A stretch of 64,000 nucleotides of DNA, taken from NCBI GenBank assembly GCA_017448985.1, contig JAFSKL010000022.1, forward strand, positions 39,621 to 103,620. Direction: 5' to 3'. Below are positions 5,634-64,000 of this stretch, one piece after another (the first letter of the stretch is position 1; each line of letters starts with the position of its first letter). The position numbers were made by a program, and so were the translations under genes. This stretch comes from Paludibacteraceae bacterium (GTDB lineage: Bacteria; Bacteroidota; Bacteroidia; Bacteroidales; Paludibacteraceae). Below the pieces are notes generated by a model that searched no databases, was not told the origin of the DNA, and saw nothing but the letters and a program-made list of their open reading frames with translations.

Positions 5634-5656
5634 TTGAAAATTGAAAATTAAGAATT
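5634..5656. repeat. Short degenerate array between dnaE and folC
   Basis: The gap is filled by repeated A/T words (ttgaaaa, ttgaaaa, ttaagaa, ttacgag) running straight into the folC coding region. It belongs to the array type seen throughout the window. Confidence 0.6.
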
Positions 5657-6976
5657 ACGAGTTACAGCGAAGCTGTCACATATCTGTACAATTCGCGTCC
5701 ACCCTTTCATATAGTGGGCGCGAGTGCTTATAAGCCGGGACTGGAGACGACCTTACGGCTGATGGCGCATGTGGGCAATCCGCACGAGCAACTGCAGGCC
5801 ATTCATGTGGCAGGCACTAACGGCAAGGGTTCGACGAGTCATCTGATAGCTGCTTCTTTGCAGGCTTCGGGTCTCAAAGTAGGGCTGTTCACCAGTCCGC
5901 ATCTGGTCAGTCTGACCGAACGGATTCGTATCAACGGCAAACCGATTGAGGAAGAAGCGGTAGCACGATTCGTAGAGCAGAACAGGGAGTTCCTGGATAC
6001 TTTGCAACCCTCATTTTTTGAGACCATGACGGCCCTCGCTTTTGCGTATTTCGTGCAAGAGGGCGTGGACATAGCCGTTGTGGAGACAGGTCTCGGCGGT
6101 CGTTTAGACAGTACGAACGTACTGACGCCGGTATTGTCAGTCATCACGAATATAGGCCTTGACCATACGGAGTTTCTGGGCGACACGCTCACGAAGATTG
6201 CCCGCGAGAAGGCCGGTATCATCAAGCCGAACGTGCCTTGCGTGATCGGCGAGACGCATCCGCAGACAATGAATGTGTTCCTCGAACGGGCGAAAGAATG
6301 CGGGATTCTGGGAGACGGACCGGAGACGACCGATTGCAGGATTTGGTTTGCGGACCAATGCGGCTATTTGCGCAGATGCCGTTTGCGGGAAGCACCCGAG
6401 TGTGAGTTGAAAGGACTGTGTCAGGAGCAAAACCAACAGACGGCGTATGTGGCGCTGAGGGCTATTTCAAATTTAGGATTTCAAATTTCAAATTCAGATA
6501 TTCGAGAAGGGTTTGCGTATGTGTGCCGTTTGACGGGCTTGCAGGGACGATGGGAAGTACTGCAAGAGCAACCTCTTACGATATGCGACACAGGGCATAA
6601 CAGTCACGGATTGCAGTATGTAGCAAGGCAGTTGAAGGAGCTGACAAATCCGAACATATGGATTGTGTTCGGGCAGGTGAACGACAAAGATACGGAAGTG
6701 GCGTTACGGCTGATGCCACAAGGTGAGAAATACCATTATATCTTCACGCGCCCGAAGACGGAACGAGCCCGAAGTGCAGAGGAGATGTTAAATCTTTGGC
6801 ATTCAGTTATCAGTATTCAGCATTCAGTTATCAGTATTCAGACCTCAGCGGTCGCGATTGAGGATCCGGAAGAGGCTATCCGCTATGCGCAACAACAGGC
6901 CTCAGCGGACGATGCCGTTTTTATCGGAGGCAGCAATTATTTGGTAGGAAATGCGATATCATTGTATTCACATTAA
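5657..6976 (+). CDS. folC: Folylpolyglutamate/dihydrofolate synthase, apparent ACG start
   Basis: Mur-ligase-type enzyme that adds glutamate to folates (and probably makes dihydrofolate). The P-loop is HVAGTNGKGSTSH (about residues 50-62), followed by FTSPHL, TGLGGRLDSTN and the conserved GLDHTEFLGDTL; the C-terminal domain has a DTGHNSHGL block. The first conventional start is GTG 5714, but homology runs 19 codons further up: SYSEAVTYLYNSRPPF matches the family N-terminus (M-x-Y-x-E-x-x-x-Y-L-Y). The codon where Met is expected is ACG at 5657, and a stop lies upstream at 5642. Two low-complexity insertions sit in the C-terminal half (6465-6500 and 6801-6842). A tool restricted to standard starts would call 5714-6976. 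The end overlaps prmA by 26 bases. Confidence 0.93.
   Translation, partial: TSYSEAVTYLYNSRPPFHIVGASAYKPGLETTLRLMAHVGNPHEQLQAIHVAGTNGKGSTSHLIAASLQASGLKVGLFTSPHLVSLTERIRINGKPIEEEAVARFVEQNREFLDTLQPSFFETMTALAFAYFVQEGVDIAVVETGLGGRLDSTNVLTPVLSVITNIGLDHTEFLGDTLTKIAREKAGIIKPNVPCVIGETHPQTMNVFLERAKECGILGDGPETTDCRIWFADQCGYLRRCRLREAPECELKGLCQEQNQQTAYVALRAISNLGFQISNSDIREGFAYVCRLTGLQGRWEVLQEQPLTICDTGHNSHGLQYVARQLKELTNPNIWIVFGQVNDKDTEVALRLMPQGEKYHYIFTRPKTERARSAEEMLNLWHSVISIQHSVISIQTSAVAIEDPEEAIRYAQQQASADDAVFIGGSNYLVGNAISLYSH
6465..6500 (+). repeat. In-frame array inside folC (copy 1)
   Basis: Words of the type ttcaaat are repeated four times and are read as AISNLGFQISNSDI in the protein. The composition differs from the flanking coding sequence. 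Confidence 0.65.
6801..6842 (+). repeat. In-frame 21-nt tandem duplication inside folC
   Basis: A 21-base unit (attcagttatcagtattca plus gc) occurs twice in tandem, the last base differing. It encodes HSVISIQ twice, so the unit keeps the frame. Confidence 0.85.
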
Positions 6977-7748
6977 GACGAGTTTCGCCGATGAATGGCG
7001 GAAAGACATGTTCGACCAGATGCTTTGCGATTTGGGCGTTGACACCATTGACGGGCAGGATTACTATATTCCTTCCGATTTGTGGGCAGAGAAAAACGAG
7101 CTCATTCGTGGCGTGTGTGCGATAGGCAAGGACGATGGGTCCGTAGAGTTGCTTGGCGTGGACGCGTGTCCGGACGAGGACTGGAATGCCGTTTGGGAAG
7201 CGGAACATCCTGTGCAAGAGCTGCCTTTGGGTATACGGATCGTGCCGCATTGTGCTTTCGGCGCCGGGCATCACGAGACAACATCTATGCTGATAGACAG
7301 TCTGTTGGGCGCGGACTTGAAGGGCAAGAAGGTGCTTGACCACGGTACCGGAACAGGTGTGTTGGCTATCTTTGCCAAACGACTTGGAGCTGCACATGTG
7401 GTGGCTGTCGATATAGACGAGAAAAGCGTGCAGAACGCCAAAGAGAATGCGGAACTGAACCATGTGGACATAGAGGTACAACATAGTTCGATTTCTGATT
7501 TCAGATTTCAAATTTTTGATTTGATTCTCGCCAATATACATCGCAATATTCTTATCGAGTATATGCCGAAATATGCAGAAGCGCTTGAAGAAGGCGGCGA
7601 GTTATGGATGAGCGGTTTCTATGAGGCCGACTGTGCGGCACTGAAAGAAGCTGCCGAAGATAATGGGCTGCAGGTTATTGACGTCCTTGCGAACGGCGAA
7701 TGGCGGTTGATGAGATGTCGAAATAAGGAGCTTCCGCCAAAAATCTAA
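6951..7748 (+). CDS. prmA: Ribosomal protein L11 methyltransferase
   Basis: SAM-dependent enzyme that methylates ribosomal protein L11; 265 residues. The conserved substrate loop FGAGHHETTSMLI precedes the SAM motif I, here DHGTGTGVLAIFAKRLGA, then VAVDIDEKSVQNAKEN (motif II) and LILANIHRN in the place of the usual ANI block. An in-frame array (7491-7524) lies between motif II and ANIHRN. The start ATG 6951 is inside the end of folC, so the two are translationally close. The last 74 bases overlap the convergent nadD gene; the natural C-terminus is about at WRLMRCRNKE, leaving a few extra residues read from the nadD antisense. Confidence 0.92.
   Translation: MRYHCIHIKTSFADEWRKDMFDQMLCDLGVDTIDGQDYYIPSDLWAEKNELIRGVCAIGKDDGSVELLGVDACPDEDWNAVWEAEHPVQELPLGIRIVPHCAFGAGHHETTSMLIDSLLGADLKGKKVLDHGTGTGVLAIFAKRLGAAHVVAVDIDEKSVQNAKENAELNHVDIEVQHSSISDFRFQIFDLILANIHRNILIEYMPKYAEALEEGGELWMSGFYEADCAALKEAAEDNGLQVIDVLANGEWRLMRCRNKELPPKI
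7491..7524 (+). repeat. In-frame array inside prmA
   Basis: The words gatttct, gatttca, gatttca and aatttttgattt are read as SISDFRFQIFDL, just before the ANIHRN motif. Similar words lie inside folC at 6465-6500. Confidence 0.6.
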
Positions 7749-8229
7749 TATTTTTGGCATTGGTGATTGGTGATTGGTAATTGAAGCCCTTCTCGGCAGA
7801 GGCCGCTCCTCCCGTTTGTCGGGAGGACGCTCTGGGATAAACAAATACGCGGAAGTTTTCCAGGATATATTCATACTCGCGCCATTGGTTGAAAATGGCG
7901 ATATTGTCTTCTCCGATCACGAGCGTAAACTCGTATTCGGGATAGGTCTGTTGCAGAGCCCGAAGCGTGTTGGCGGTATAAGACGGACGAGGTAACGAGA
8001 ACTCGAAGTCGGAGGCTTTGAGACCTGGGATATCTTTGATGGCCTCGCGAACGGCGGCAAGACGCTCTTGTTCAGGCGCTAACAGACCGACAGGTTTGAG
8101 CGGGTTATTAGGACTGACCAACAGCCATAGTTCATCCAGGTCCGTATTCTCAATGACCCATTTGGCTAATCCGATATGCCCGAAGTGGACCGGATTGAAG
8201 CTACCGCCGTATATACCTACTTTAGCCAT
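7675..8229 (-). CDS. nadD: Nicotinate-nucleotide adenylyltransferase, shortened C-terminus
   Basis: Adenylates nicotinate mononucleotide in NAD synthesis. The nucleotidyltransferase signature GGSFNPVHFGHIGLAKW is at residues 8-24 and the second motif ISSTAIR near the end. The family normally carries 20-25 more residues after ISSTxIR, including a Pro-x-Val-x-x-Tyr-Ile helix; here the frame stops after RSQGRQ. The end overlaps the 3' end of prmA. Residues about 132-157 (RASSRQTGGAASAEKGFNYQ and on) are an insertion encoded by a hairpin plus a tandem array at 7757-7826. It is the last gene of the mnmE-yicC-gmk-nadD operon, 13 bases after gmk. Activity without the C-terminal helix is uncertain. 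Confidence 0.9.
   Translation of the reverse strand: MAKVGIYGGSFNPVHFGHIGLAKWVIENTDLDELWLLVSPNNPLKPVGLLAPEQERLAAVREAIKDIPGLKASDFEFSLPRPSYTANTLRALQQTYPEYEFTLVIGEDNIAIFNQWREYEYILENFRVFVYPRASSRQTGGAASAEKGFNYQSPITNAKNIRFLAEAPYFDISSTAIRRSQGRQ
7757..7826 (-). repeat. Hairpin plus tandem array inserted in nadD
   Basis: The array ttggtgattggtgattgg with one further unit (7757-7783) is followed by a perfect 7-bp stem, CCTCCCG (7808-7814), loop tttgt, CGGGAGG (7820-7826). The whole block is read in frame by nadD as an extra loop. Confidence 0.75.
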
Positions 8230-8242
8230 TGGCTGTTAGCTG

Positions 8243-8797: not shown

Positions 8798-8844
8798 TAT
8801 AATGAATAATTAATAATGAATAATGAATATCTTTTAATATCTTT

Positions 8845-14244: not shown

Positions 14245-14306
14245 AACCATTTACGATTTGGTCATTTACGATGTACGATTTATTTAGTCATTTAATAATT
14301 TAACAT
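14245..14306. repeat. Degenerate array between lptD and slyD
   Basis: Words catttacgattt, gtcatttacgatg, tacgatttattta and gtcatttaataattt fill the gap. The tract ends at the slyD start codon; no promoter is seen, so slyD may be read from lptD. Confidence 0.6.
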
Positions 14307-16316: not shown

Positions 16317-16835
16317 ATGAAAATAATAGGCTTCGTATATAACGACGGCGAGGCACAAATGGTGCTTAAAGGGGACAGTTGTCTTCTGAATAACCGCAAG
16401 CCTATGTTCGTACCCGATTGGACGCAGGAGTTGGGAGTGACAGAGTGTATGATACTGCGTGTTAGCCGTTTGGGCAAGGGGATAGCGAGGAAGTTTGCGA
16501 GCCGATATTACGATGCCGTTGCTCCGGGAGCAGACTTTACGGCGATGGACATGCTACGGGAAGCAAAGGCGAAAGGCGAGCCGTGGACTGAGGCGATAGC
16601 GTTTGACTATTCGTTGGCGGTAGGGAAATGGATAATGGACAATGGACAATGGACAATGGACAATTTGGTTCTACATCCCGACGAGGCGATAGTGGAGGCG
16701 AGCAAAGTGATGACCATCCGGCAAGGCGATTTGATTTATATCCAGAAGCGTTGTGCGCCGAGGCCGGTACAAAAAGAAGAAGTGATTCGCATCGAGACAG
16801 AAGGCGAGGAACAATTATACTGCAAGATTAAATGA
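16317..16835 (+). CDS. Degenerate fumarylacetoacetate-hydrolase-like protein
   Basis: A 172-residue protein whose middle (RVSRLGKGIARKFASRYYDAV, near residues 45-65, then FTAMDMLREAKAKGEPW) matches the FAH superfamily as found next to porU in Bacteroidetes. Family members use a Glu pair in an ExE motif just before R-x-x-RLGK to bind the metal; aligned here is VTECMILRV, so both Glu positions appear lost. The protein is also shorter than usual (about 205) and carries an in-frame tandem array (16631-16665) encoding MDNGQWTMDN. ATG 16317 is chosen over GTG 16308. The stop overlaps the porU start (ATGA). It may be a non-catalytic remnant kept for porU translation. Confidence 0.6.
   Translation: MKIIGFVYNDGEAQMVLKGDSCLLNNRKPMFVPDWTQELGVTECMILRVSRLGKGIARKFASRYYDAVAPGADFTAMDMLREAKAKGEPWTEAIAFDYSLAVGKWIMDNGQWTMDNLVLHPDEAIVEASKVMTIRQGDLIYIQKRCAPRPVQKEEVIRIETEGEEQLYCKIK
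16631..16665 (+). repeat. In-frame array inside the FAH-like gene
   Basis: Seven-base words ggacaat/ggataat are repeated five times and are read as MDNGQWTMDN. Confidence 0.8.
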
Positions 16836-19800: not shown

Positions 19801-20179
19801 TGGACCGCATAGTCTGACCTTCCGGACTTGGGACTTGCTCAACAACAGTACGACGCAGAGCCTGAACTTCGTAGTAGAAGCAGGTCTCGATCCGTCTATC
19901 TACTCCGTGACCACCTACCCCAACCCGGCTCAGCAGTCGAGTGTGGTGAAGCTGGTAGTCAATTACGACCAGCCGGATGAGCTGCTGCAAACGGAGATTT
20001 GTCTGTATAACATCAACGGACAAATGGTGTATAGCCATTTGCAGAACAACCCGGACGAGGTGGCGATTAACCTCGGGCAGTTGAGACTCAATCCGGGCGT
20101 GTATGTATATAACGTGAAAATCAAATCCGCTTCAAGCCGGTACAGTACGGCAGCGGGAAAAATAATTGTTACCAAATAA
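16832..20179 (+). CDS. porU: Type IX secretion system sortase PorU
   Basis: Cell-surface gingipain-like (C25) protease that removes the C-terminal signal of T9SS cargo and links cargo to anionic LPS. The 1115 residues begin with a signal peptide (MKKLLLFIATLLLSLPMLAG). The C25 domain spans about residues 390-760, with RWLLLMGHGTFDNR, the catalytic His633 in DYSGHGGYNA and Cys666 in FATCNFAQYD, then an Ig-like region. The C-terminus (from YPNPAQQSSV, near 1029) is a full-length type A sorting domain with YNINGQMVYS and PGVYVYNVK, as known for PorU itself. porV and ispF follow, the order found in Porphyromonas. Translation overlaps the gene before by 4 bases. Confidence 0.94.
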   Translation: MKKLLLFIATLLLSLPMLAGLHSYAEHSVLANGHWVKIRVSESGVCRMSFSELRSAGIEPQQVRVFGYGGGQLEQDFKQPKIDDLPQVPVFMGEDYILFWVQGPISWAYDGNRFVHTRNTYSDFGHYLLTDDAGSMLAPTEGEAISGTATDVTNYIFYDVHDKDSLNLIDRSGVAGGGRTFYGEQFNANQSRSFTFSTPNAIVGETSSVYAEVAAFSTNASYFHMNLNGTADQNVYIRPYPDFYTFGVPGAISTKSGSTANQQMVQLTLENSASGALGWLNFVEIMTPSELKMTGSWMPVRTNVNYKTGTPVRFHMQGADANTQIWDITNLASIQRVPTSLSGSEIQWTGTQADGVHEYVAVNVKGSSFVKASVVGEVKNQDLHTLKNIDLVIICPEGYESVSEDLAKAHEEREGITWAVVTDQEVYNEFSSGTPDATAYRWLMKMLYDRADGNAIQKPRWLLLMGHGTFDNRKLLLNSGNSLLLTYQAKDSENEVNAYATEDYFGFLDDDEGVEDTRGVMDIGVGRLPVNSVEEARAIVDKLVRYIRNEQTGKWKNQLVFVADDGEHGTHTETAEGSSERVRVKNPDFVVNKIYLDAYPQEVNASGESYPLAKNRLTNLLKSGVLFFDYSGHGGYNAITNESILNLKDIDNMSNKNQAFWLFATCNFAQYDSGKRCAAEAAVMNPNGGAIGILAATRTVYATPNTELNRSVCDTLFGHKNAYHYDMTLGEAIAIGKNRLGNDMNKMAYVLLGDPAMRLNYPTDYQVKTVTKIDTLNALSVQQVEGQIIDEDKKVVDDFNGKVDITIYDKLQVIKTRDNDDKSDEAKELEYNDYPSTIFSGATEVKDGKFAYTFMVPKDIRYNFGNGRIVYYAVTNDSLETAEAVGHFEDFIIGGTGSIMAADTVGPEMHIYLNTKTFVNGDKTYATPRFFADLYDENGINTAGAGIGHDLMMVVDDDPKQIYSLNEYFTAANSSYQAGQVSYLMDELPDGPHSLTFRTWDLLNNSTTQSLNFVVEAGLDPSIYSVTTYPNPAQQSSVVKLVVNYDQPDELLQTEICLYNINGQMVYSHLQNNPDEVAINLGQLRLNPGVYVYNVKIKSASSRYSTAAGKIIVTK

Positions 20180-20286
20180 TGGTAAATGGAAAATATAAAA
20201 TGAAAAATTGAAAATGGAAGAATGCCTATGAAGCAAATCGCTCAATAACAACGAATTAACAATAACAAAAACAATAACTAAAACAA
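20180..20286. repeat. Degenerate array between porU and porV
   Basis: Words ggtaaat, ggaaaat, ataaaat and gaaaaattgaaaat (20181-20216), then an A-rich leader of the Bacteroidetes type before porV. No terminator or promoter box is seen. Confidence 0.5.
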
Positions 20287-21495
20287 ATGAAAAAAATTCT
20301 TATTTCTCTCGCTGGCGTGTTGTGCGCGACGATGATGTATGCACAAGCGACAGTCGATGACACGATGAATCCGCTGATCACAGCGATGCCTTCCCTTTCG
20401 ATTGCGCCGGATGCCCGTGCAGCAGGTTTGGGTGACGTAGGTGTGGCCACGGATGCCGATTTTAACGCACAGTACTGGAACCCTGCCAAGTACGCGTACA
20501 TGTACTCGAAGGGTGGTATCACCGCTAACTACACGCCTTGGTTGCGCAAACTGGTGGGTGACATCGATCTGGCTTACCTCGCCGGTTTCTATAACTTCGG
20601 TGAGCTGGCCGGAGGTATCGGTGCGAGCTTCACGTATTTCTCGATGGGTGACGTAACGCTTTCGACGGAGAGCAATCCCGATTTGGGGACAGTTCGGCCG
20701 AATGAGTGGGCGTTGGACCTCAGTTATTTCCGCAAACTGCACGAGTATGTATCGATGAGTGTGGCTATTCGTCTGCTCTACTCCGACCTGAACAATGGTC
20801 AGAGCCAAAACTCGACGACGGGTAATGACCAGAACATGCACCCGGCTGTAACGGCTGCTGCTGATGTGTCGATCTTCTACCGTCAGCCCTTGGAGTTGCC
20901 GATGGGAACAAGTTATCTGAATGTAGGTTTCAGCCTCAAGAACCTCGGTGGTAAGATGGAATACACCGACGACCGCAGCAACTTTATCCCTGCCAGCATG
21001 AACATAGGTGCCAGCTATGAACTGCCGCTCAACAAATACAACTCGTTGACATTCAACTTGGAGGCCAACAAGATGCTGGTTCCGAGCCGCAAATCGAAGT
21101 TCGCAGTTGACGAGAATGGCAACCCGCTGGAAGGCGAGCCGTTGAGCACATGGTATTCGGGCATCAACTCGGCCAGAGGCTGGTTCATGTCGTTTGCTGA
21201 CGCTCCGGGCGGTGCAGCCGAGGAGTTCAACGAGGTTCGTTGGGGTGCCGGTCTTGAATACTCGTACAACAAGCAGTTCTTTGCCCGCTTGGGTTATAGC
21301 TACGAGAACTACTACAAAGGTAACCGTAACTATATCACCATCGGTGCCGGTTTCCACCTCTCTATCGTAACCTTGGATGTATCGTACTGCGTTGGTTTGG
21401 CTCCGTCCAACCCCTTGGACCAGACCATGCGTTTCACGCTGGGCTTCGACCTCTACGGCATCAAGGACCTGGTGGACAACAAGAAGAACAAATAA
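20287..21495 (+). CDS. porV: T9SS outer-membrane protein PorV
   Basis: FadL-like beta-barrel of 402 residues that shuttles T9SS cargo from the translocon to PorU (also called LptO). Signal peptide MKKILISLAGVLCATMMYAQ. Family features: SLSIAPDARAAGLGDVGVAT at residues 38-57, then QYWNPAKYAYM, GGIGASFTYFSMGD, VGFSLKNLGGKMEY, and the C-terminal strand RFTLGFDLYGI. Position directly after porU supports the call. Confidence 0.94.
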   Translation: MKKILISLAGVLCATMMYAQATVDDTMNPLITAMPSLSIAPDARAAGLGDVGVATDADFNAQYWNPAKYAYMYSKGGITANYTPWLRKLVGDIDLAYLAGFYNFGELAGGIGASFTYFSMGDVTLSTESNPDLGTVRPNEWALDLSYFRKLHEYVSMSVAIRLLYSDLNNGQSQNSTTGNDQNMHPAVTAAADVSIFYRQPLELPMGTSYLNVGFSLKNLGGKMEYTDDRSNFIPASMNIGASYELPLNKYNSLTFNLEANKMLVPSRKSKFAVDENGNPLEGEPLSTWYSGINSARGWFMSFADAPGGAAEEFNEVRWGAGLEYSYNKQFFARLGYSYENYYKGNRNYITIGAGFHLSIVTLDVSYCVGLAPSNPLDQTMRFTLGFDLYGIKDLVDNKKNK

Positions 21496-21526
21496 GGAGT
21501 TAACGAGTTAAAGAATTAACGAGTTA
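21496..21526. repeat. Degenerate array between porV and ispF
   Basis: Words gagttaac, gagttaaa, gaattaac and gagttaat lead straight into the ispF start codon (ATGAGAATA). Confidence 0.6.
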
Positions 21527-23977: not shown

Positions 23978-23984
23978 CCCTTCC

Positions 23985-24029
23985 ACCTTTCACTTTTCAC
24001 CTTACACTTTTCACTTTTCACCTTTCACC
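23985..24029. repeat. Degenerate array between the DUF349 gene and ftsE
   Basis: Six copies of words cctttcac, cttttcac and cttacac form the whole gap. Confidence 0.7.
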
Positions 24030-26954: not shown

Positions 26955-26993
26955 CCTTTCACTTTCCACTTTCCACTTTCACTTTTCACCCTT
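26955..26993. repeat. Degenerate array between the YjjG-type gene and tRNA-Pro
   Basis: Words ctttcac, tttccac, tttccac, tttcac and ttttcac. The words match those of the array at 23985-24029, 3 kb away. Confidence 0.7.
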
Positions 26994-51727: not shown

Positions 51728-52225
51728 ATGGAAAAAGAAGAAATAGAGGCTCGGGCTCAACGGGCTGTGGAACTATTCAAACAGGGATTTAACTGCTCGC
51801 AGGCGGTGTTTGCGTCGTGTGCGGATTTGTACGGGATAGACGACGAGGCTTTGGCGTTGCGTTTGTCGGCATCGTTCGGCGGCGGGATGGGTCGTATGCG
51901 ATTAGTATGCGGTGCAGCCAGCGGGATGTTCCTGTTGGCGGGTCTGCACAACGGTTCCTGTACGCCTCACGACAATGAAGGCAAGATGGCCAACTATGCG
52001 TTGGTGCAAGAGTTGGCAGGCGAGTTCAAGGGTAAGTACGGCTCGCTCATTTGTGCGGAGTTGTTGGGACTGGCGCCGAAGGGTGCGGTTACGGGTTACG
52101 GGTTACCGGTTATGGGAGAGGATCCGAAACCGGCAGAGCGAACTCCCGAATATTACGAGAAACGGCCTTGCCCGGAGATGATTGCAGAGGCGGTACGTAT
52201 TTACCTGGGGAAAATTAAAAATTAA
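51728..52225 (+). CDS. C_GCAxxG_C_C family protein
   Basis: A 165-residue member of the C_GCAxxG_C_C family, probably a redox or metal-binding protein. The naming residues are present: Cys in FNCSQAVFASC, then the GCAxxG-type VCGAASGMFLLAG, Cys in NGSCTP, and later cysteines in LICAELL and KRPCPEM. A short array (52088-52117) is read in frame as VTGYGLPVMGED. Function is not established. It heads a run of genes through cysK and cysE. Confidence 0.85.
   Translation: MEKEEIEARAQRAVELFKQGFNCSQAVFASCADLYGIDDEALALRLSASFGGGMGRMRLVCGAASGMFLLAGLHNGSCTPHDNEGKMANYALVQELAGEFKGKYGSLICAELLGLAPKGAVTGYGLPVMGEDPKPAERTPEYYEKRPCPEMIAEAVRIYLGKIKN
52088..52117 (+). repeat. In-frame array inside the C_GCAxxG_C_C gene
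   Basis: Words gttacgg, gttacgg, gttaccg and gttatgg. The same word gttacgg recurs in the lpd gene at 54599-54629. Confidence 0.7.
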
Positions 52226-52246
52226 AAATTAAGAATTAAGAATTAT

Positions 52247-53152
52247 ATGATTGTTAAAAACTTACTTGAATTGATCGGCAAAACGCCGATGTTAGAAATT
52301 AAAGAGGGCAACACTCGTTTGCTGCTTAAGTTAGAGCGTTTTAACCCGGGCGGTTCGGTCAAAGACCGTATCGCGCTTGCGATGATAGAAGATGCGGAAC
52401 GTAGCGGTAAACTGCACCCCGGAGCAACCATCATCGAACCTACGAGCGGAAACACAGGCGTAGGTCTGGCGTGGGTAGGTCGCATCAAAGGATACAAAGT
52501 GATCCTCACGATGCCTGAGACGATGTCCGTAGAGCGCAGAAACCTGCTTGCTAACTATGGCGCTGAACTCGTTCTCACACCCGGTTCAGAAGGCATGAAA
52601 GGTGCGATTGCCAAGGCTGAAGAGTTACGTGACGCAACTCCCGGCAGTATCATCCTCGGTCAGTTCACCAATCCTGCTAACCCGGCTATTCACTATGCTA
52701 CGACGGGTCAGGAGATATGGGAAGATTCCGCAGGACAAGTGGATGTGTTCGTTGGCGGTGTAGGTACCGGAGGAACGGTCAGCGGAGTAGGACGGGCGCT
52801 CAAAGAGAAGAACATGCTGGTCGAAGTTATCGCCGTAGAACCCGCTTCGTCACCTGTTCTTTCGGGCGGTAATCCCGGTCCGCACAAGATACAAGGTATC
52901 GGCGCAGGATTCAAACCTCAGACCTTCCAGGAGCAGTTTGTGGATCGCGTGATGACCATCAGCAATGAAGATGCTTTTGACGCTGCACGCAGACTGGCCA
53001 AAGAGTTCGGATTGCTTGTCGGCATCTCTTCCGGCGCGGCCTTTGCGGCGGCTTGCCAACTGACGCGGGACAAAGCCTACGAAGGCAAGACGATTGTGGT
53101 ACTTTTGCCGGATACGGGAGAGAGGTACCTTAGTGTAATGAATAATGAATAA
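52247..53152 (+). CDS. cysK: Cysteine synthase A
   Basis: PLP enzyme that makes cysteine from O-acetylserine and sulfide; 301 residues. The PLP Lys is in NPGGSVKDRIAL (near residue 40); PTSGNTGVGLAWVG binds substrate; GVGTGGTVSGVGR holds the phosphate; GISSGAAFAAA is the C-terminal PLP contact. The family end GERYLST is present as GERYLS, after which the protein reads VMNNE from the aataatg array (53133-53192), so the original C-terminus appears replaced. Next to serine acetyltransferase, its usual partner. Confidence 0.96.
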   Translation: MIVKNLLELIGKTPMLEIKEGNTRLLLKLERFNPGGSVKDRIALAMIEDAERSGKLHPGATIIEPTSGNTGVGLAWVGRIKGYKVILTMPETMSVERRNLLANYGAELVLTPGSEGMKGAIAKAEELRDATPGSIILGQFTNPANPAIHYATTGQEIWEDSAGQVDVFVGGVGTGGTVSGVGRALKEKNMLVEVIAVEPASSPVLSGGNPGPHKIQGIGAGFKPQTFQEQFVDRVMTISNEDAFDAARRLAKEFGLLVGISSGAAFAAACQLTRDKAYEGKTIVVLLPDTGERYLSVMNNE

Positions 53153-53192
53153 TGAATAATGAATAAAGAATAATGAATAAAGAATAATGAAT
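53133..53192. repeat. Array at the end of cysK and before cysE
   Basis: The word aataatg/aataaag is repeated eight times. The first units code for the last residues of CysK (VMNNE). Confidence 0.8.
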
Positions 53193-53203
53193 ATTTTTTA
53201 TAA

Positions 53204-53888: not shown

Positions 53889-55238
53889 ATGCGATATTTT
53901 TTAGCCATCATAGGCGGCGGCCCGGCAGGATATACAGCTGCAGAGAAAGCCTCGAAAGCCGGTAAGGATGTGGTGCTGTTTGAGCAGAACGCGGTAGGCG
54001 GGACTTGCCTCAATGTGGGATGTATCCCGACCAAATCCCTACTCTACGGCGCCAAGCAGTATTACAACGCCACGCACGCACAGAAATACGGCGTGACGGC
54101 GAGCGAGGTGAGTTTTGATTTTACGGCGATGCAGAAGCGCAAGACCATCGTTGTGCGCAAATTGGTAGCGGGCATCAAGCAACGCCTCAACAACGAACAC
54201 TGCACATTGGTCAGCGGTTTGGCCAAGGTGGTCAGTTATCAGCCGTCAGCCGTCAACATTGAGTGTAACGGCGAGACCTACGAAGCGGAGAACCTGATGA
54301 TCTGCACCGGCTCGACGAACTTCGTACCACCTATTCCGGGCATCAAAGACAACGAACATGTATGGGACAGTACCGATGCGTTGGCTGCCACGGAACTGCC
54401 CAAGTCGATCATCATCGTCGGCGGCGGTGTGATAGGTATGGAGTTTGCGACGCTGTACCACGAACTCGGTGTGCCGGTGACGGTGATCGAAGCGTTGCCG
54501 ACGATTCTGCCGAACCTCGATGCGGAAGTGGTGGCGGTGCTGGCGGACAAATACAAGAAAGCCGGTATCAATATTTTGACCTCGACTAAAGTCGAAACGG
54601 TTACGGGTAACGGGTTACAGGTTACGGGAGAAGCCGGAGTACAGACTTTCGAAGCAGAGCGGATTCTTGTTTCGGTAGGCCGACGCGCGAACTTGAACGG
54701 ATTGGAGGCGCTGAACGAACTCGAACTGAATCGAGGAGCCATCGTCATAGACGATTTCTGCAAGACCAATCTGCCGAATGTCTATGCCTGCGGAGATGTG
54801 ACGGGCAAGATCATGTTGGCGCATGTGGCCAGCCGCCAGGCCGAAGTAGCGGTTGGGCGTCTGCTGAAACAGATACCGCTGCAACGCATCGCCTACAACG
54901 CGATTCCGTCGGTCGTTTATACGAATCCGGAGATAGCGTCAGTGGGCATCACGGAGAAGCAAGCGGACGAAATGGGTATTGCCGCAGAGGTGCGTCGTCT
55001 GCCCATGACATTCTCCGGCCGTTTCATGGCAGAGAACGAAGGCGAGACAGGACTCTGCAAGATGGTGATTGACACCAAGAAACAGTCGGTGCTCGGCGTC
55101 CATATGATCGGAAACCCGTGTTCGGAATTCATTGCCGCAGCCTCATTCGCAGTACGAATGGGTTACACCACGTCCGAGTTCGAGCAGGTCGTCTTCCCCC
55201 ACCCCACGGTGAGCGAGATTTTGCACGAAATTTTGTGA
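53889..55238 (+). CDS. lpdA: Dihydrolipoamide dehydrogenase-type flavoprotein
   Basis: Class I pyridine-nucleotide disulfide oxidoreductase of 449 residues. FAD-binding IIGGGPAGYTAAEKASKAG is at the N-terminus, the redox pair in GGTCLNVGCIPTK (near residue 36-41), the NAD-binding GGGVIGMEFATLYHELG near 178, and the second FAD motif VYACGDVTG near 300. The C-terminal catalytic HPT-x-SE is VFPHPTVSEIL. Two low-complexity arrays lie in it (54231-54257 read YQPSAVN; 54599-54629 read VTGNGLQVTGE). No 2-oxo acid dehydrogenase genes are nearby, so the partner complex is unknown. ATG 53889 is preferred to the frame opening at 53826, which lies inside cysE. Confidence 0.94.
   Translation: MRYFLAIIGGGPAGYTAAEKASKAGKDVVLFEQNAVGGTCLNVGCIPTKSLLYGAKQYYNATHAQKYGVTASEVSFDFTAMQKRKTIVVRKLVAGIKQRLNNEHCTLVSGLAKVVSYQPSAVNIECNGETYEAENLMICTGSTNFVPPIPGIKDNEHVWDSTDALAATELPKSIIIVGGGVIGMEFATLYHELGVPVTVIEALPTILPNLDAEVVAVLADKYKKAGINILTSTKVETVTGNGLQVTGEAGVQTFEAERILVSVGRRANLNGLEALNELELNRGAIVIDDFCKTNLPNVYACGDVTGKIMLAHVASRQAEVAVGRLLKQIPLQRIAYNAIPSVVYTNPEIASVGITEKQADEMGIAAEVRRLPMTFSGRFMAENEGETGLCKMVIDTKKQSVLGVHMIGNPCSEFIAAASFAVRMGYTTSEFEQVVFPHPTVSEILHEIL
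54231..54257 (+). repeat. In-frame array inside lpdA (copy 1)
   Basis: Words gtcagttatcagcc, gtcagcc and gtcaac are read as SYQPSAVN in an FAD-domain loop. Confidence 0.55.
54599..54629 (+). repeat. In-frame array inside lpdA (copy 2)
   Basis: Words ggttacg, ggtaacg, ggttaca and ggttacg, read as VTGNGLQVTG; the word family is that of 52088-52117. Confidence 0.7.
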
Positions 55239-55293
55239 TGTCGTTGGTCGTTAGTCGTTAGTCGTTAGAAAATAATAAAATACAATCTATACC
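55239..55293. repeat. Degenerate array between lpdA and the first endonuclease gene
   Basis: Words tcgttgg, tcgttag, tcgttag and tcgttag (55241-55270), directly after the lpdA stop, then an A-rich leader. Confidence 0.7.
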
Positions 55294-57100: not shown

Positions 57101-58867
57101 ATGGCACACATCAAACATTATACATCCTACATCCTGTTTGCGCTGCTTATCGTAGCGCAGACAGGCTTGTGCGAGGAGCTGCCAGAAGGTTTCTACAACG
57201 AGGCTGACGGCAAACAAGACGGAGCGCTCAAAGACCAGCTCAAGACCCTCATTCGGGACCATAAAGCGATCCCGTACGGAACGGGAGCCACCTCGACATG
57301 GGGCGTGTTCTACTATTCCGACCGCGATGAGGAAGGCTACTGCATGGATATGTACTGCGACGATTGGTACAAGTTCACCACTCCTGGTGCAGCGGTCACG
57401 GGGTGTAACATCGAGCATAGTTTTGCCAAGAGCTGGTGGGGAGGTTCGAACAACGATGCCTACAAAGATTGTTACCATCTCAACCCCTCCAATTCACAGG
57501 CCAACAGTGCCCGAAGCAACTACCCGCTTGGTGTGCCGGAGAAGGACATCAAAACAGCCGGTTCGTTGCGTGTAGGGAAGAAACATCACCCGACCTTGGA
57601 TGTCGATTTCTCGGTGTTTGAGCCCAAGGATGAGTACAAAGGCGATTTTGCCCGCGCGTACTTCTATATGGCTACCTGTTACGGCCATTGGTCGAACGGA
57701 GAGATCGATCCTGTGCTGTCGTCCTATAACGGATGGCGGCTCGACAACAAAGATGTGGGGTCCAAGTTTGCCATGCAGAATGACAACTACCTCGAATTTC
57801 AGCCTTGGGAACAGGAAGTGCTCATTCAATGGCATCGTCAGGATCCCGTGTCGATCAAGGAGATTCGCCGTATGGATGCCGTTTCGGATTTCCAGCACAA
57901 CCGCAATCCGTTCATCGACTATCCTTATCTGGCGGAGTATATTTGGGGAGAACATATGGGCGAGCCGGTCGATATGTCGCTGTTAGTGGCTTCTTCGGAC
58001 GAGGCCTTTATTCCGGGCGTGAGCAACGGCTGGCGTGAAGGCGGGGCACCGACTGTCAAACCCAAATACGGTGTGTCATGGTCGGTAAACGATGAGATCA
58101 TTCAAGTCGATTCGATCACGCAGAACAAGAAGATCCCTGCTCTGCCGGAGACACCGCTGTCGTGCTCCGTGACCAGCGATTGTTTCATGGGCTGGACCAC
58201 TGCGCCAATCCAAGGCACGACAGACGAAGCGCCCGACAAACTGTATCTGTCCGCAACCGATATCCCGTCCGTTACGGCAGACATCACCTATTATGCCGTG
58301 TTTGCACAAAAGACGGTGATTGATGGCGGAGACCCCGCCACCTATGTCTTTGACGAAGACCATCAGGCCGGCTGGACGACAGATGCGGAGAACAAGAGCG
58401 GGTATTGGCTGCTTGATGAAGGTAAGACGCTCGTCTCGCCCGAAGTGAACCTGTCCGGTTTATCCGCTATCTCCGTGCGGATTCGTACTTACGGAGGTAA
58501 GGAATACAACCAATTGGACGTTCATGCCGGCGACCAGCTCATCACCTCTTTCGTCACGACTACCGGTTCGACGCTGACCGACTATACATGGACCAATACC
58601 GGCACGCTGAGCGGCAAAGCATCGCTGACATTCTCTTGCCCCGTTGGAGGTTCAAAGAAAGGTATCGGCATCTCAAATGCTACCATCGAAGCGACGGGTA
58701 TCCGTGTTCTGTACACCGACTACCTCACATCGTGTAACCAGTCCGGTATCGATGAGGTCAATAGCCAAGAGTCAAGAGCCAAGAGCCATAAGTTCATCCG
58801 AGACGGCCGCCTGCTCATCCGCATAGGTGAACAGGTCTATACCATCACCGGACAACGAGTACGATAA
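57101..58867 (+). CDS. Secreted endonuclease I family nuclease, copy 2
   Basis: A 588-residue paralogue of the preceding nuclease with the same domain order. Signal near residues 8-25 (YTSYILFALLIVAQTGLCEE). Active-site region NIEHSFAKSWWGGSNNDAYK, then DCYHLNPSNSQANSARSNYP, and NRNPFIDYPYLAEYIWG. The accessory domains (YGVSWSVNDEIIQVDSITQN; GYWLLDEGKTLVSPEVNLSG) match copy 1. It ends with the tag KFIRDGRLLIRIGEQVYTIT plus GQRVR, just after an in-frame array (58759-58792). It is the last gene of its run and ends 15 bases before the convergent gene. Confidence 0.92.
   Translation: MAHIKHYTSYILFALLIVAQTGLCEELPEGFYNEADGKQDGALKDQLKTLIRDHKAIPYGTGATSTWGVFYYSDRDEEGYCMDMYCDDWYKFTTPGAAVTGCNIEHSFAKSWWGGSNNDAYKDCYHLNPSNSQANSARSNYPLGVPEKDIKTAGSLRVGKKHHPTLDVDFSVFEPKDEYKGDFARAYFYMATCYGHWSNGEIDPVLSSYNGWRLDNKDVGSKFAMQNDNYLEFQPWEQEVLIQWHRQDPVSIKEIRRMDAVSDFQHNRNPFIDYPYLAEYIWGEHMGEPVDMSLLVASSDEAFIPGVSNGWREGGAPTVKPKYGVSWSVNDEIIQVDSITQNKKIPALPETPLSCSVTSDCFMGWTTAPIQGTTDEAPDKLYLSATDIPSVTADITYYAVFAQKTVIDGGDPATYVFDEDHQAGWTTDAENKSGYWLLDEGKTLVSPEVNLSGLSAISVRIRTYGGKEYNQLDVHAGDQLITSFVTTTGSTLTDYTWTNTGTLSGKASLTFSCPVGGSKKGIGISNATIEATGIRVLYTDYLTSCNQSGIDEVNSQESRAKSHKFIRDGRLLIRIGEQVYTITGQRVR
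58759..58792 (+). repeat. In-frame array inside endonuclease copy 2
   Basis: Words caatagc, caagagt, caagagc, caagagc and cataag are read as NSQESRAKSHK between the last domain and the C-terminal tag. Confidence 0.75.
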
Positions 58868-59425: not shown

Positions 59426-59455
59426 AATTCTCTCCTTTCAATTTTCAATTTTCAA
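59426..59455. repeat. Degenerate array between the GH53-like and barrel genes
   Basis: Words tttcaattttcaattttcaatt at 59438-59459 run into the stop codon of the GH53-like gene. Confidence 0.65.
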
Positions 59456-61201
59456 TTACTTCACTATCTCTTTATGGTTGATTAATATATTCTTAGCAGT
59501 ACCCACTTTGTTCTCAAACTCGAACATCGACATGGGATACCACTCGCCTTCATAGTCCGGCGCCCAATAACGGATACCGACGAGCCCGTGAGCCTTGCCC
59601 CATGCAATGACATCGGCATAGATTTCTTGCTGGCCTTTCTGCGACTTCTCATACGGTCCCATCTTTTTGTTCCAGCCCGCAAACGGTCCTACCATGTCTT
59701 GCGACGGATACGAGAACTCACCGATGAACACAGGCATATTGCATTTCTTGTTGATACGCGTCACGGTCTTGGTGTACAGTTTCCATTTATTGAAACTCAT
59801 CGCCGGCGCGGAGGGATAATAACTGATACCGGCTGTTTGCATATCGTAACCATGCTCGGTCATATACGTAAAGAACGAAGCGCAAGCACGAGGCGTAGAA
59901 ACGACCGTAGCGATATGCGTGGAGAACTTAACCTTGGATGCGTCTAAACCGGCTTTTGCGTACGATTTGCGGATACCACGTTGCACTGCCGCCAACGTCT
60001 GTGCCTCATATTTCCACACATGGTTCTTGAGCCAAGCCAAACCGAAGAGCGAAGACATATAGCGCTTCATAGGTCCTGCTTTCGCCAGTTTCTTGTCAAA
60101 TGAGTTAGGCGTTCCGATACCGATACCGGCAAAACCGAAGTTGGCCTCGTTGCCCAAGTTCCAGTTGTTGACCGTAGCGCCGGTAGCTAAGATTGAATCA
60201 CCTACGAACTCACCGTATTTCTCTATCACATAGCATATATCTTCGAGGCTGAGTGTCTCCCAAATCTTCGGGTCTCCGTCCTGCATGATGGCTGCAAACT
60301 TAGCGTCCGCGTAGAGTTCGGGATAGTCCGACTTGTAGAACCGCGGAGCCTGGGTGCCGTCCATATCCATATAGATATACGCGCACATCACTTCGGGATT
60401 AATGGGTATATTCAGCGCAGCAGCTATCTTGCAGGTCTGTATCACTTGATCAAACGTGTGGGCGTTGGCGTTCTCGTCCGGCTTGCCGTCGGTTGTATTG
60501 TCTATCGTGCCGTCAGGATTATAGGTTTTATGCCGCTTGGTAGCCAAACGCACATACATTTCCGTGGCGCCCTGGTTGATAAAGATCTGCTGCAGCTCCA
60601 TAGGAGTCGTCGCCGTCTGGTCACCCACTTTGAAGGTGTATCCTGCTTCAAACTGATTCAACGTAAACGGACTCAACGACAGTGCCACGCGAAAAGGCTC
60701 GTCGGTCGAGGCCACATACTTCGCACTCTGAACGGATGAGTAGCCGATAAAATCTTCCTCTTTGTCTTCATCTACTAATTGGGCAAAGAGCTCCGGCTCA
60801 ATGGTCTCTACCAAACCGACATACTCGATCTTGTTGGTAGCACCGCCTTCACGACACATCATGACGATGGAGGACGCTTTGTCGCCTTGGCGCGCACCTA
60901 ACACGTAGTTACCGCCGGCTTTCAGCGTGATACGAAACTGATGAATACCGCTCTCAAACGAGCCGCAGTACATAGTGGTCATGTGACCATACACATTTGC
61001 CACAGCCAACGTCACCTTCGACGGCTCCATCACCGCCAGATACACGTCCGTAGAACCGCTGAACGAATTGGGTAGGTTCTGCGACAGCATAAAACCTTTG
61101 CTCTCCACCAACTTGTCCATGTCAAAGACATGCTTCAAACTCTGTGCACTCATGGTAAGGCACAGCATCGTCAGCAATAAAAAAGTTAGAATTTTTTTCA
61201 T
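59456..61201 (-). CDS. GH53-like secreted glycosidase
   Basis: A 581-residue secreted protein (signal MKKILTFLLLTMLCLTMSAQ). An N-terminal beta domain (about 30-190) precedes a TIM-barrel with pattern resembling GH53 endo-beta-1,4-galactanases: strand 4 NWNLGNEANFGFAG (acid/base Glu), AGISYYPSAPAMSFNKW, and strand 7 MPVFIGEFSYPSQD (nucleophile Glu). The family call is tentative because the spacing and the long N-terminal domain are unusual. Substrate may be galactan. A divergent AraC regulator gene shares its upstream region, which suggests specific control. Confidence 0.6.
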   Translation of the reverse strand: MKKILTFLLLTMLCLTMSAQSLKHVFDMDKLVESKGFMLSQNLPNSFSGSTDVYLAVMEPSKVTLAVANVYGHMTTMYCGSFESGIHQFRITLKAGGNYVLGARQGDKASSIVMMCREGGATNKIEYVGLVETIEPELFAQLVDEDKEEDFIGYSSVQSAKYVASTDEPFRVALSLSPFTLNQFEAGYTFKVGDQTATTPMELQQIFINQGATEMYVRLATKRHKTYNPDGTIDNTTDGKPDENANAHTFDQVIQTCKIAAALNIPINPEVMCAYIYMDMDGTQAPRFYKSDYPELYADAKFAAIMQDGDPKIWETLSLEDICYVIEKYGEFVGDSILATGATVNNWNLGNEANFGFAGIGIGTPNSFDKKLAKAGPMKRYMSSLFGLAWLKNHVWKYEAQTLAAVQRGIRKSYAKAGLDASKVKFSTHIATVVSTPRACASFFTYMTEHGYDMQTAGISYYPSAPAMSFNKWKLYTKTVTRINKKCNMPVFIGEFSYPSQDMVGPFAGWNKKMGPYEKSQKGQQEIYADVIAWGKAHGLVGIRYWAPDYEGEWYPMSMFEFENKVGTAKNILINHKEIVK

Positions 61202-62254: not shown

Positions 62255-62295
62255 AGTTTAGAACGGGATCATCACGGGACCATGTCCTGAGGACC

Positions 62296-64000
62296 TTACT
62301 TTGAGAACAGTCGGAAAAGTAATGGTGGAACGGTGACAGCCATAATGAGGACAACGGACATACCGATAAGCGTGACGGTACCGAGGGAGTGCATGGCAGG
62401 ATGTTGGGCAAAGACAAGGATGCCGATGCCGATGAGCATGATGAGTGCGGAGAGGATGATTGACTGCCGGTACTGAGGCAGCATCGGTTTGCCTGTGCGG
62501 TGTTCGTAGAGCAAGCCTTCGACGATGAAGATGGTATAGTCGTCACCTTGTCCGAAGATGAACGTGGCAAGGATGATATTGACGATGTTGAACTGCAAGC
62601 CGAAGAGTTGCATCAGTGCCAAGATCCACACCCAACTAAGAGCCATAGGCACAAAAGCAATCAAGGCAAGCCATATACTGCGGAAACTGAGCCACAAGAA
62701 AGCAAAGACGATGATCGAACAAACCAAGCCGAGGTAGTCAAAATCGTCAGAGAGACGACTTATGACATTTACCATTTGCCCATTTACCATTTTTTCATTT
62801 ATTTGGTCATTGGGCGATTGAGTCATTAGCAACTGATCGTAGAAAGGCTGAAAAGCGTCAGGACGGAAACCAACAGCAACTGCTTCGTTCTGAATAAGGG
62901 AAATGAGTGTCTGCGGGTTGTGGGTTTGCCAATAGGCATGCCATTGGTCATTCGTCGTTTGTCGTTGGTCGTTAGAAAAGAAAGATTCAAAGGCTTCCAT
63001 ATCTGCCCGCTGCTGAGCAGTCATGTAGTTGATATGGGAAGGATTGGGATCAAACCATGTACCATTTGACCATTTACCATTTACCATTAAATATACACCT
63101 GCGACAAGGGTAAGCGCGAGAACAATCCATTTACCATTTGACCATTTACCATTTACCATTTTTATGTCGCGGACCGGTGTAGGTTCGGCGGACATGAGAT
63201 GCGGGAGAACGAAGACACAGAAGAGTATCGTACCGATAAGCATAGCCGCAGCAAAGATCCCAAGATGGCGCATGGCCGTAGCTTGCAACGGGACGAGTGC
63301 CAGAAAAGCGCCGACAGTGGTGATATTGCCCACCACAAGAGGCGAGAGCACTTCGTTAAGCGTCTGCCGGACGGAAGTGGTATAACGCTGATGCACGAGC
63401 AGGTGTAGCGGATAATTGACAGCGATACCGATAAGCACGCTGCCTATGCCGAGCACCACGGCACTGACAGTAGGCGTAACGAGCCGAAGGATAGCCATGC
63501 CGAAGATCCAACCGAAGGTGACAGACAGCAGAATAAGCGCCAAGTCACGACGGCGCGGGAAAGCATAGAGCAGCAAGGCAATGATGAACACCAGCGAGAG
63601 ACTGATACAGAGAATCGTGTCGGTTTTGATACGTCGCGCATTGCCTACCGCAATAACAGGAGCGCCGATCCAACGGATGTTCAAATTAGGAAAAGCCTCA
63701 GCCACCTCATCCGTCACGGCATGAAGCGAGTCTATCAATGCGGCGTTATGCTTCGTCTCCGTGGAGCCGTAAGGACTTTCGATAAAAGCAAAGCTTTTAT
63801 TGCGGGACAGAGCCTGTCGTTGGTCGATAGTCTTTAGATCGACTAAGCCCAACGGATCGGCTTGGATAATCGGAGTTAGGAAAGATGTGCCGGGTGTAGA
63901 GAGGATTGACTTATCGCGAAGCAAGGCTTTATGCACGGCTTCGGGCGTGAAGAGCGAATCGTGAATAGAAAATGGAAAATAGAAAAAGGAAAATGGAAAA
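62296..64000 (-). CDS. RND/MMPL family exporter, C-terminal part (partial)
   Basis: The frame is open through the right edge, so only the last 568 residues or so are seen. Two blocks of membrane helices are visible (about LSLVFIIALLLYAF to VFVLPHLM, and VCSIIVFAFLWLSF to VTVPPLLFRLF), each with the sterol-sensing-type RND pattern. FGQGDDYTIFIVEGLLYEH carries the acidic motif of the second unit and GIGSVLIGIAVNYPLHLLVH the matching one of the first. Arrays lie in its soluble loops at 62764-62829, 62946-62977, 63055-63089, 63127-63163 and 63961-64000. Similar proteins act as lipid or precursor exporters; the substrate is unknown. Confidence 0.85.
   Translation of the reverse strand, partial: FPFSFFYFPFSIHDSLFTPEAVHKALLRDKSILSTPGTSFLTPIIQADPLGLVDLKTIDQRQALSRNKSFAFIESPYGSTETKHNAALIDSLHAVTDEVAEAFPNLNIRWIGAPVIAVGNARRIKTDTILCISLSLVFIIALLLYAFPRRRDLALILLSVTFGWIFGMAILRLVTPTVSAVVLGIGSVLIGIAVNYPLHLLVHQRYTTSVRQTLNEVLSPLVVGNITTVGAFLALVPLQATAMRHLGIFAAAMLIGTILFCVFVLPHLMSAEPTPVRDIKMVNGKWSNGKWIVLALTLVAGVYLMVNGKWSNGTWFDPNPSHINYMTAQQRADMEAFESFFSNDQRQTTNDQWHAYWQTHNPQTLISLIQNEAVAVGFRPDAFQPFYDQLLMTQSPNDQINEKMVNGQMVNVISRLSDDFDYLGLVCSIIVFAFLWLSFRSIWLALIAFVPMALSWVWILALMQLFGLQFNIVNIILATFIFGQGDDYTIFIVEGLLYEHRTGKPMLPQYRQSIILSALIMLIGIGILVFAQHPAMHSLGTVTLIGMSVVLIMAVTVPPLLFRLFSK
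62764..62829 (-). repeat. In-frame array inside the RND gene (copy 1)
   Basis: Words catttac, catttgc, catttac, catttttt and catttatttggtcatt are read as SPNDQINEKMVNGQMVN. Confidence 0.75.
62946..62977 (-). repeat. In-frame array inside the RND gene (copy 2)
   Basis: Words ggtcatt, cgtcgttt, gtcgttg and gtcgtta are read as SNDQRQTTND. Confidence 0.7.
63055..63163 (-). repeat. Two identical in-frame arrays flanking a membrane helix in the RND gene
   Basis: The same 28 bases occur at 63061-63088 and 63133-63160, 72 bases apart (24 codons). Both are read as MVNGKWSNG with T or K next, one on each side of the helix IVLALTLVAGVYL. Confidence 0.85.
63961..64000 (-). repeat. In-frame array at the window edge in the RND gene
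   Basis: Words gaaaatg, gaaaata and gaaaaag are read on the minus strand as FPFSFFYFPFSI just before DSLFTPEAV. The array continues past the window edge. Confidence 0.65.

Follow-up and report, generated by a model that had tools for sequence, protein, structure and literature searches.

We analysed a stretch of 64,000 nucleotides from a Paludibacteraceae bacterium (GCA_017448985.1; contig JAFSKL010000022.1, positions 39,621 to 103,620), hereafter the window, in which short tandem arrays, mainly of seven-nucleotide words, lie between genes and in frame within genes such as folC, prmA, nadD and lpdA. We found that the words recur genome-wide and differ between genomes, that two or more array families occur as ordered composites scattered over the genome, and that the same protein loops in related species hold other words, palindromic elements or none.

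The genome is a draft of 2.36 Mb in 45 contigs and is 97% complete. Our own-genome sample comprised 464 kb, namely the window and 400 kb of further contigs, which were chosen among those with AATTGAA matches and may inflate the share of AATTGAA. Genes in this sample (353 genes, 87.7% coding) were called by a purpose-written open reading frame (ORF) caller. Arrays were detected through Tandem Repeats Finder and through self-match runs at a fixed lag, compared with shuffled sequence. Judged from titles and contig counts, the genomes compared were mostly drafts or metagenome-assembled genomes, with a single genome per species. The comparison set obtained from FolC was composed of metagenome-assembled and other genomes of Bacteroidales, Paludibacteraceae or Bacteroidia, many of ruminant-gut source.

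Heptanucleotide arrays in the window

The earlier note, made from the letters of the window, had placed arrays in eleven intergenic gaps. Tandem Repeats Finder confirmed arrays in the genes named there and at or within a few bases of ten of the gaps; for the eleventh (14245), a degenerate 7/8-nt composite, the detected array lay 37 bases downstream. Self-match runs at lag 7 numbered 12 in the window and 0.0 per shuffle (10 shuffles), and 92 arrays at this lag were found in 464 kb, with 0.0 in shuffled sequence (3 shuffles). At the other lags the 464 kb held 15 (lag 8), 6 (lag 9), 3 (lag 10) and 18 (lag 11). The period is thus mainly 7, with 8 and 11 secondary: the tandem arrays described earlier as words of 6-11 nt are real, but the lengths are not evenly spread. 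The pattern AATTGAAAATTGAAAATT matched the genome 42 times, and its reversed form 0 times.

The gene names used here were backed by Pfam at family level in eight cases (FAA hydrolase, HAD hydrolase, FecCD, GH2, C_GCAxxG_C_C, Pyr_redox for lpdA, Endonuclease I and MMPL); folC, prmA and nadD are consistent with the alignments of relatives. The features of the window are as follows.

5632..5649, plus strand: AATTGAA array between the stop codon of the upstream gene and folC (Tandem Repeats Finder)
6464..6494, plus strand: ATTTCAA array, in frame in folC loop 1 (Tandem Repeats Finder, alignment of relatives)
6799..6848, plus strand: ATTCAGT/TATCAGT array keeping the frame in folC loop 2, where a GKEG-type loop is found in several relatives
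7490..7515, plus strand: GATTTCA array, in frame in prmA
7759..7783, minus strand: ATTGGTG array, in frame in nadD (minus-strand gene)
7786..7830, minus strand: palindromic element of 45 nt that keeps the nadD frame, encodes ASSRQTGGAASAEKG and adjoins the heptad array
8800..8838, plus strand: AATAATG/AATAATT array with AATATCTTTT tail in the gmk-yicC gap, of a family with 26 genome matches
14246..14293, minus strand: AAATGRYY/AAATSGT composite in an intergenic gap
16627..16664, plus strand: AATGGAC array, in frame in an FAA-hydrolase-like gene (Pfam)
20178..20224, plus strand: AATGGAA array beginning at the stop codon of the 16832-20179 gene
21493..21531, plus strand: array of the 8-nt word TAACGAGT, located at the stop codon of gene 20287-21495
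23979..24031, minus strand: ARGTGAA array that takes up the gap separating two minus-strand genes
26823..26843, minus strand: ATTCTGT array, in frame in a HAD hydrolase gene (Pfam)
26956..26989, minus strand: CTTTCCA array immediately upstream of the HAD hydrolase gene
29806..29837, plus strand: CTTTCAA array, in frame in a FecCD transporter gene (Pfam)
30466..30513, plus strand: AAATCGT array with composite-element features, 3' of the FecCD gene
32985..33015, plus strand: GCCAACA array, in frame in a GH2 gene (Pfam)
52087..52116, plus strand: GGTTACG array, in frame in a C_GCAxxG_C_C gene (Pfam)
52211..52245, plus strand: AAAATTA array overlapping the end of the C_GCAxxG_C_C gene
53136..53193, plus strand: TAATGAA array of 8.3 copies that runs over the stop codon of gene 52247-53152
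54599..54628, plus strand: GGTTACG array keeping the frame in lpdA; in several relatives the loop is short and of GGKVTANGE type
55240..55268, plus strand: GTCGTTA array 3' of lpdA
58759..58788, plus strand: CAAGAGC array, in frame in the Endonuclease I gene 57101-58867 (Pfam)
59436..59457, minus strand: TTTCAAT array between two minus-strand genes, in contact with the end of one of them
62764..62827, minus strand: AAATGRYY/AAATSGT composite, in frame in the MMPL/RND gene, peptide NDQINEKMVNGQMVN
62944..62973, minus strand: TTGGTCG-family array, in frame in the MMPL/RND gene
63054..63161, minus strand: two AATGGTA arrays, in frame in the MMPL/RND gene
63964..64000, plus strand: AATRGAA array adjoining the MMPL/RND gene

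The Endonuclease I gene with the CAAGAGC array is, according to the earlier note, the second copy in the window.

Our ORF caller places 40 of the 92 arrays within genes, 33 between them and 19 at their edges, so that 52 lie outside or at the border of genes in a sample that is 87.7% coding. Proximity (15 nt or less) to a start codon was found for 28 of the 54 arrays not wholly genic, and to a stop codon for 39; for random intergenic stretches, not matched for gap length, the values were 11.5% and 11.3%. The words are AT-rich (GC 0.35 across 112 distinct words).

Array density was 92 per 464 kb here, 10-11 per 120 kb in the genomes G002, G007 and G014, and one, one and none per 20 kb in G011, G017 and G028. 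Therefore the window genome was the richest sampled within its genus. In other families of the order we found three arrays in about 441 kb from 17 genomes; four of the 21 genomes were left out of this estimate, their lag-7 matches being runs of N. An Rfam scan of the window matched none of the tracts, and its sole matches were tRNA and a DUF805b cis-regulatory RNA (RF02914, 46.1 bits, 50493-50527) near the start of a large minus-strand ORF.

The largest cluster of repeated 18-mers in the 464 kb had 92 copies and was promoter-motif-like (GTAATTTTGCAG, for example at window position 563); the clusters following it were largely heptad families. Another dispersed family consists of 11-mer arrays of the GACCG/CGGTC type (ACCGACAGTCA, window 34696-34755).

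Dispersed composite families

In two array families the copies are scattered through the genome and keep the order of their units. The first, searched as AATAATGAATATCTTT with at most one mismatch, gave 26 genome matches at 23 sites, while the control gave 0. Three sites hold two matches each; the pairs on contigs C36 and C39 share a 38-base spacing and may be one duplicated stretch. In the 20 matches inspected, the order AATAATG-ATTAATG-AATAATG-AATATCT was found at six sites, and other orders recur too. The exact 16-mer AATAATGAATATCTTT occurs six times here, once each in 3 of 36 other genomes of the genus, and not at all in 24 genomes of other families.

The second family is built of AAAT cores with spacers of four letters (mostly GRYY) and three letters (SGT), is centred on AAATAAAT, and has a 15-base repeat, the length of five codons. 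The sample contained 19 rows, of which 12 are intergenic, six are labelled as genic in sense orientation (two of these at gene edges, in L031 and at L046 17751) and one, at window position 29471, is antisense and probably spurious. The pattern AAATGRYYAAATSGTAAAT gave 64 matches here (56 sites when those within 50 bases are merged) and the control 0; it was found in 24 of the 36 other genus genomes and in one of 24 other-family genomes, with one control match in one other-family genome. The earlier statement that the arrays lack a fixed sequence is wrong for at least these two families, and also for the palindromic elements described below. No terminal inverted repeats or target-site duplications were seen by eye in the copies inspected, and no formal search for them was made.

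Genome dialects

The 92 arrays comprise 43 distinct words, and the top necklace occurs in 12 of the arrays. The words do differ between loci, as noted earlier, within a limited genome vocabulary in which some tracts are copied composites. The 52 non-coding arrays used 27 words, with the top word in nine, while 1000 draws of intergenic 7-mers gave at least 44 words with a top count of at most four.

The earlier note had called for a genome-wide word count. Words recur across a genome and differ from one genome to another. The top words here are AAAATTG, AAAAATT and AAAATGG. AAACTTG occurs in 5 of 9 arrays in G230 and AAAGGTG in 5 of 7 in G360, both stretches having been chosen at matches of a TTCA pattern that their top words fit; AACATCC accounts for 9 of 30 arrays in G352, AAAGGCG for 3 of 11 in G014 and AAAGTCG for 3 of 10 in G007, and the 11 arrays of G002 had no dominant word. 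The two words of a pair were identical in 5.2% of cases within a genome and in 0.42% between genomes, with 0 of 500 permutations as extreme, the pairwise counts being non-independent. For genomes of the same genus, a comparison that escapes the TTCA-picking bias and retains the AATTGAA-picking bias, the values were 4.25% and 0.88%, again with 0 of 500 permutations as extreme.

We rejected the pattern WTTCAVN x3 as a count of the spread of the arrays: it matched 147 of 392 Bacteroidota genomes, and its reversed control matched many, sometimes more. In the part of its places that was listed, the words differ from genome to genome.

The same loops in relatives

In-frame inserts were found at fixed loops of FolC, PrmA, NadD, LpdA and MMPL, and at these sites relatives carry other words, palindromic elements or none. 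If the inserts were old conserved sequence, relatives should carry the same peptides at the same sites. In FolC loop 1, compared in 80 orthologs and the window, they do not: its length varied from 11 to 31 residues, and the words included ATTTCAA, CCAATAT, ATTACGGG, CAAATCT, TCAGCAT, TACACCT and the 11-mer TTCGTACATCG, while other relatives had palindromic stretches or ordinary codons. L064 and L068 hold a palindromic element, and L060, L063 and L075, 91.5-94.0% identical to them, a ATTACGGG array. At a third FolC site, 70 of the 81 rows had 8 or 10 residues, two had none and nine were longer; L065 (24 residues) and its 95% sister L069 (17 residues) have arrays differing by 21 bases, and L066, an 89% relative, has 10 residues.

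One loop of LpdA (29 orthologs) behaves alike: the window has its GGTTACG array there, L249 and L250 have other arrays, L236 and L245-L248 have palindromic stretches, and several further orthologs have a short loop. In the MMPL protein, the composite element of the window was absent from that site in 11 orthologs.

The 45-nt palindromic element of nadD was found in frame in the window and in 6 of 35 relatives, and stretches related to it are dispersed across the genus. Its SSRQTGG-type peptide is also in frame in the FolC of L076, a behaviour like that of Rickettsia palindromic elements. In L069 (7129-7200) a palindromic element (AAATAATCGTGCCCCTGAGGGGCTAAG) lies within a GAGAATT array that is unbroken in the 95% sister L065, and a similar element is located in the nadD array of L069. 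In the gmk-yicC gap, L062 and L089 share a long composite tract while L058, a 92% relative of L062, has a different array; this sharing suggests allele exchange or parallel insertion.

Turnover between related genomes

Indels were surveyed in 12 pairs of relatives with overlapping members, gaps with flank identity below 0.6 being dropped. In or near arrays, 11 of 31 were multiples of seven, compared with 0 of 51 elsewhere. Retention of words was surveyed in nine groups of relatives (pairs about 80-95% identical) through 127 comparisons, of which 15 were unanchored and dropped. In the remaining 112 the word was kept in 73, another word was found in five, and a heptad array was missing in 34, where an 8-nt array or a palindromic element was sometimes present. 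Tracts differed in kind even between some species that are 91-95% identical.

The clearest single event was found in L062. Here TAAATCA units span about 57 bases, whereas GTATAGGCAAATGATA stands at this place in L058 and L059 (92.4% and 91.0% identical to L062) and also in L054 and L110, the outgroups (81.9% and 82.7%). Since close relatives and outgroups agree, parsimony makes the L062 tract a gain. The creation of tracts has this one polarised case in its favour; set against relatives, many sites are replacements and not exact insertions. Together with the turnover of loops and the dispersed families, this gain supports the view, put forward earlier, of an ongoing process that creates or copies tracts, of which those keeping the frame survive inside genes.

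Candidate enzymes and rules

A linked gene had also been suggested. None of the three profile families searched (RVT_1, Y1_Tnp and IMS) proved to be linked, and no genome-wide association was run. The RVT_1 profile of reverse transcriptases had no match in the window genome or in 28 of the 36 other genus genomes, and matched in 3 of 14 control genomes; its absence from a 97%-complete genome indicates that a reverse transcriptase of this type looks unnecessary. The Y1 transposase was rejected as its sole Y1_Tnp match scored 23.0 bits, right at the cut-off, over 48 of 121 positions. The Y-family polymerase was likewise rejected: IMS is present here but unmatched in 7 of the 36 other genus genomes. 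One of these seven is G022 (88% complete), which carries an ATTCAGC array at locus L003.

Two rules on the words were also rejected. A single "wild-card" position was striking in hand-picked families and weak overall: a first count gave 56 of 317 pairs against a rough expectation of 0.10, and internal units with a weighted null gave 94 same-column pairs against 80.7. Avoidance of self-complementary words, at which a raw list of rare 4-mers had earlier hinted, was dropped because palindromic 4-mers numbered 45 against a shuffled mean of 55.6 (range 38-71).

Origin of the arrays

We lean, with slightly better than even confidence, to a two-step turnover in which slippage births, ectopic copying and selection together produce the heptad tracts. 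Ordinary replication and repair enzymes would run it. An array would be born from a chance near-repeat seven bases apart, less often 8 or 11, expanded via strand slippage, and the newborn short array would gain, lose and reshuffle whole units. Some arrays would then be copied to unlinked sites with their unit order kept, in one family with a non-repeating tail, and the repeated words would supply microhomology for template switching. Such dispersal would give each genome its own vocabulary. Selection would purge most insertions and leave survivors at gene junctions, often at a stop codon or just before a start codon, or in variable loops where the frame is kept. Most copies are presumably neutral.

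For the birth step, FolC loop 1 offers indications read by eye. The array-less L101 has AATTACGGAGCC (N-Y-G) at the site where six relatives (L060, L063, L072, L073, L075 and L076) have ATTACGGG runs; L084, L101 and the more repeat-like L056 hold ATTCAG..TCAG near-repeats, and ATTCAG arrays occur in L065, L069 and L085. These alignments suggest that arrays may have been born locally at this loop. In distant species, words matching at six or more of seven positions made up 20.1% of 477 pairs at the same site and 6.5% of 9652 pairs at different sites. For the copying step, the dispersed ordered families and the genome dialects point to movement between sites. The seven-base period, the seven-base indel steps, the turnover of words between relatives and the polarised gain in L062 also count in favour of the scheme.

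Several points weigh against the two-step turnover. The FolC "seeds" were chosen by eye and could be decayed arrays; local seeding, common descent and conserved coding sequence all feed into the same-site similarity; and FolC loop 2 shows no visible seed, its array replacing rather than extending the GKEG codons of relatives. No copying event was seen directly, donor and recipient being unpaired, and among the flanks listed no shared tail was seen for array families besides AATAATG. The dialect test is biased by sampling, as G230 and G360 were picked at TTCA matches and our own contigs at AATTGAA matches, and in the 80-locus set similar words show a small surplus within species (11.8% of 195 against 6.5%).

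If slippage acted alone, arrays would expand from the sequence of each site, and words would be shared since slippage favours some AT-rich words. The unit-step indels, the near-repeats seen by eye in array-less FolC relatives and the same-site similarity between distant species all agree with this. However, ordered composites with a non-repeating tail at 23 sites and an 8+7 pattern with 64 matches, both with own-genome controls of 0, already make slippage alone hard to maintain for the two composite families; word frequencies are also far from background draws, and dialects differ among genomes of the same genus. We regard slippage alone as rather unlikely.

The composites and the palindromic elements, which occupy the same loops and can lie within arrays, could instead be taken as signs of elements like miniature inverted-repeat transposable elements (MITEs), moved by a transposase in trans and with the heptad structure internal. 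Against this, inspection by eye revealed neither inverted-repeat ends nor target-site duplication, though no formal test was made; the only Y1_Tnp match stood at the cut-off, other transposase families not having been searched; and most arrays vary in word and length. Such elements are a doubtful explanation, to which we give a small probability.

The position of arrays beside start and stop codons, far above that of random stretches, would also be expected if selection placed them there as regulator-binding sites or translation leaders, and a start-proximal position with a regulator was proposed for the TAACTGA repeats (PMC4679880). But arrays of the same families lie in frame within unrelated enzymes, words are replaced or lost between relatives, and, by eye, AATTGAA and AATAATG arrays stand in both orientations relative to genes, so a functional role of this kind is quite improbable. 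Lastly, a telomerase-like reverse transcriptase writing heptads off an RNA template would fit the fixed period and the hand-picked families varying mainly at one position (TTNGTCG, ARGTGAA), but the RVT_1 result, the 43 distinct words and the weak one-position concentration over all arrays make it highly improbable and largely refute it for enzymes of the RVT_1 type; the profile may have missed a divergent polymerase.

Comparison with known repeats

The arrays have partial parallels. Cyanobacterial STRR sequences are degenerate seven-nucleotide units whose copy number varies. The repeats of cyanobacterial tRNA-Leu introns (PMC3488679) likewise have degenerate 7-nt units in variable number, but they form an RNA stem of one intron, while those here occupy many loci including proteins. 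Heptanucleotide long simple sequence repeats, described from the 2007 survey of Mrazek (cited in PMC4679880 and PMC4692102), show a genome-wide excess and enrichment outside genes, with polymerase slippage proposed. The arrays here share this excess and enrichment, but 40 of 92 are genic, words are replaced between relatives and composites are dispersed in unit order. The TAACTGA direct repeats of Beggiatoaceae, Cyanobacteria and five Bacteroidetes are described as heptamer arrays near start codons, with gaps that may be shorter and repeat-free in related species (PMC4679880). Start proximity was also found here (28 of 54), though with more arrays near a stop codon (39 of 54); one main word is reported there and many occur here, the TAACTGA necklace (AACTGAT) being present in one of 92 arrays. 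The GGGAATC repeats of Xanthomonas and Nostoc (PMC4692102) also form heptamer arrays near genes and vary among relatives; they are G-rich, whereas the words here are AT-rich and not G-quadruplex-like.

Rickettsia palindromic elements, named as a parallel in the earlier note, are families of about 150 bp with a conserved peptide, inserted in frame in unrelated housekeeping genes (PMC10969869). In-frame placement in such genes is shared, but the simple arrays here have no fixed sequence, with many words and no excess of palindromic 4-mers, and the nadD 45-nt element is the closer analogue. Porphyromonas gingivalis belongs to Bacteroidales. Its BrickBuilt element is a MITE minisatellite and, like the composites, a dispersed element with a tandem core; it differs from the arrays here in its 23-nt unit, its inverted-repeat ends and its placement, described as always intergenic (PMC4596501).

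Heptanucleotide arrays have been described in scattered bacteria; a 2015 paper stated that no detailed literature on them was available (PMC4692102). Heptanucleotide arrays, TAACTGA arrays and slippage ideas are already in print. Among the titles and abstracts listed by searches of mainly open-access literature, we found no report of in-frame heptad turnover in Bacteroidales; the in-frame turnover, the dialects and the dispersed composites look new.

Biological meaning

In this rumen gut bacterium and its relatives, small in-frame inserts reshape protein loops in ordinary housekeeping genes. We might further speculate, tentatively and as a possibility more than an expectation, that the arrays form an enzyme-free heptad "text", born by slippage, spread in trans via template switching and written in species dialects, which would be selfish-like, without defined ends, and would remodel loops of essential proteins in frame. 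One genus offers a natural experiment, with dozens of species, the same loops and different tracts. Through it the reason for seven bases, the spread of words in trans, and the frequency with which loop-reshaping inserts of no evident function enter conserved enzymes can be tested. Such arrays would be a second route, beside palindromic elements, for selfish DNA to enter proteins.

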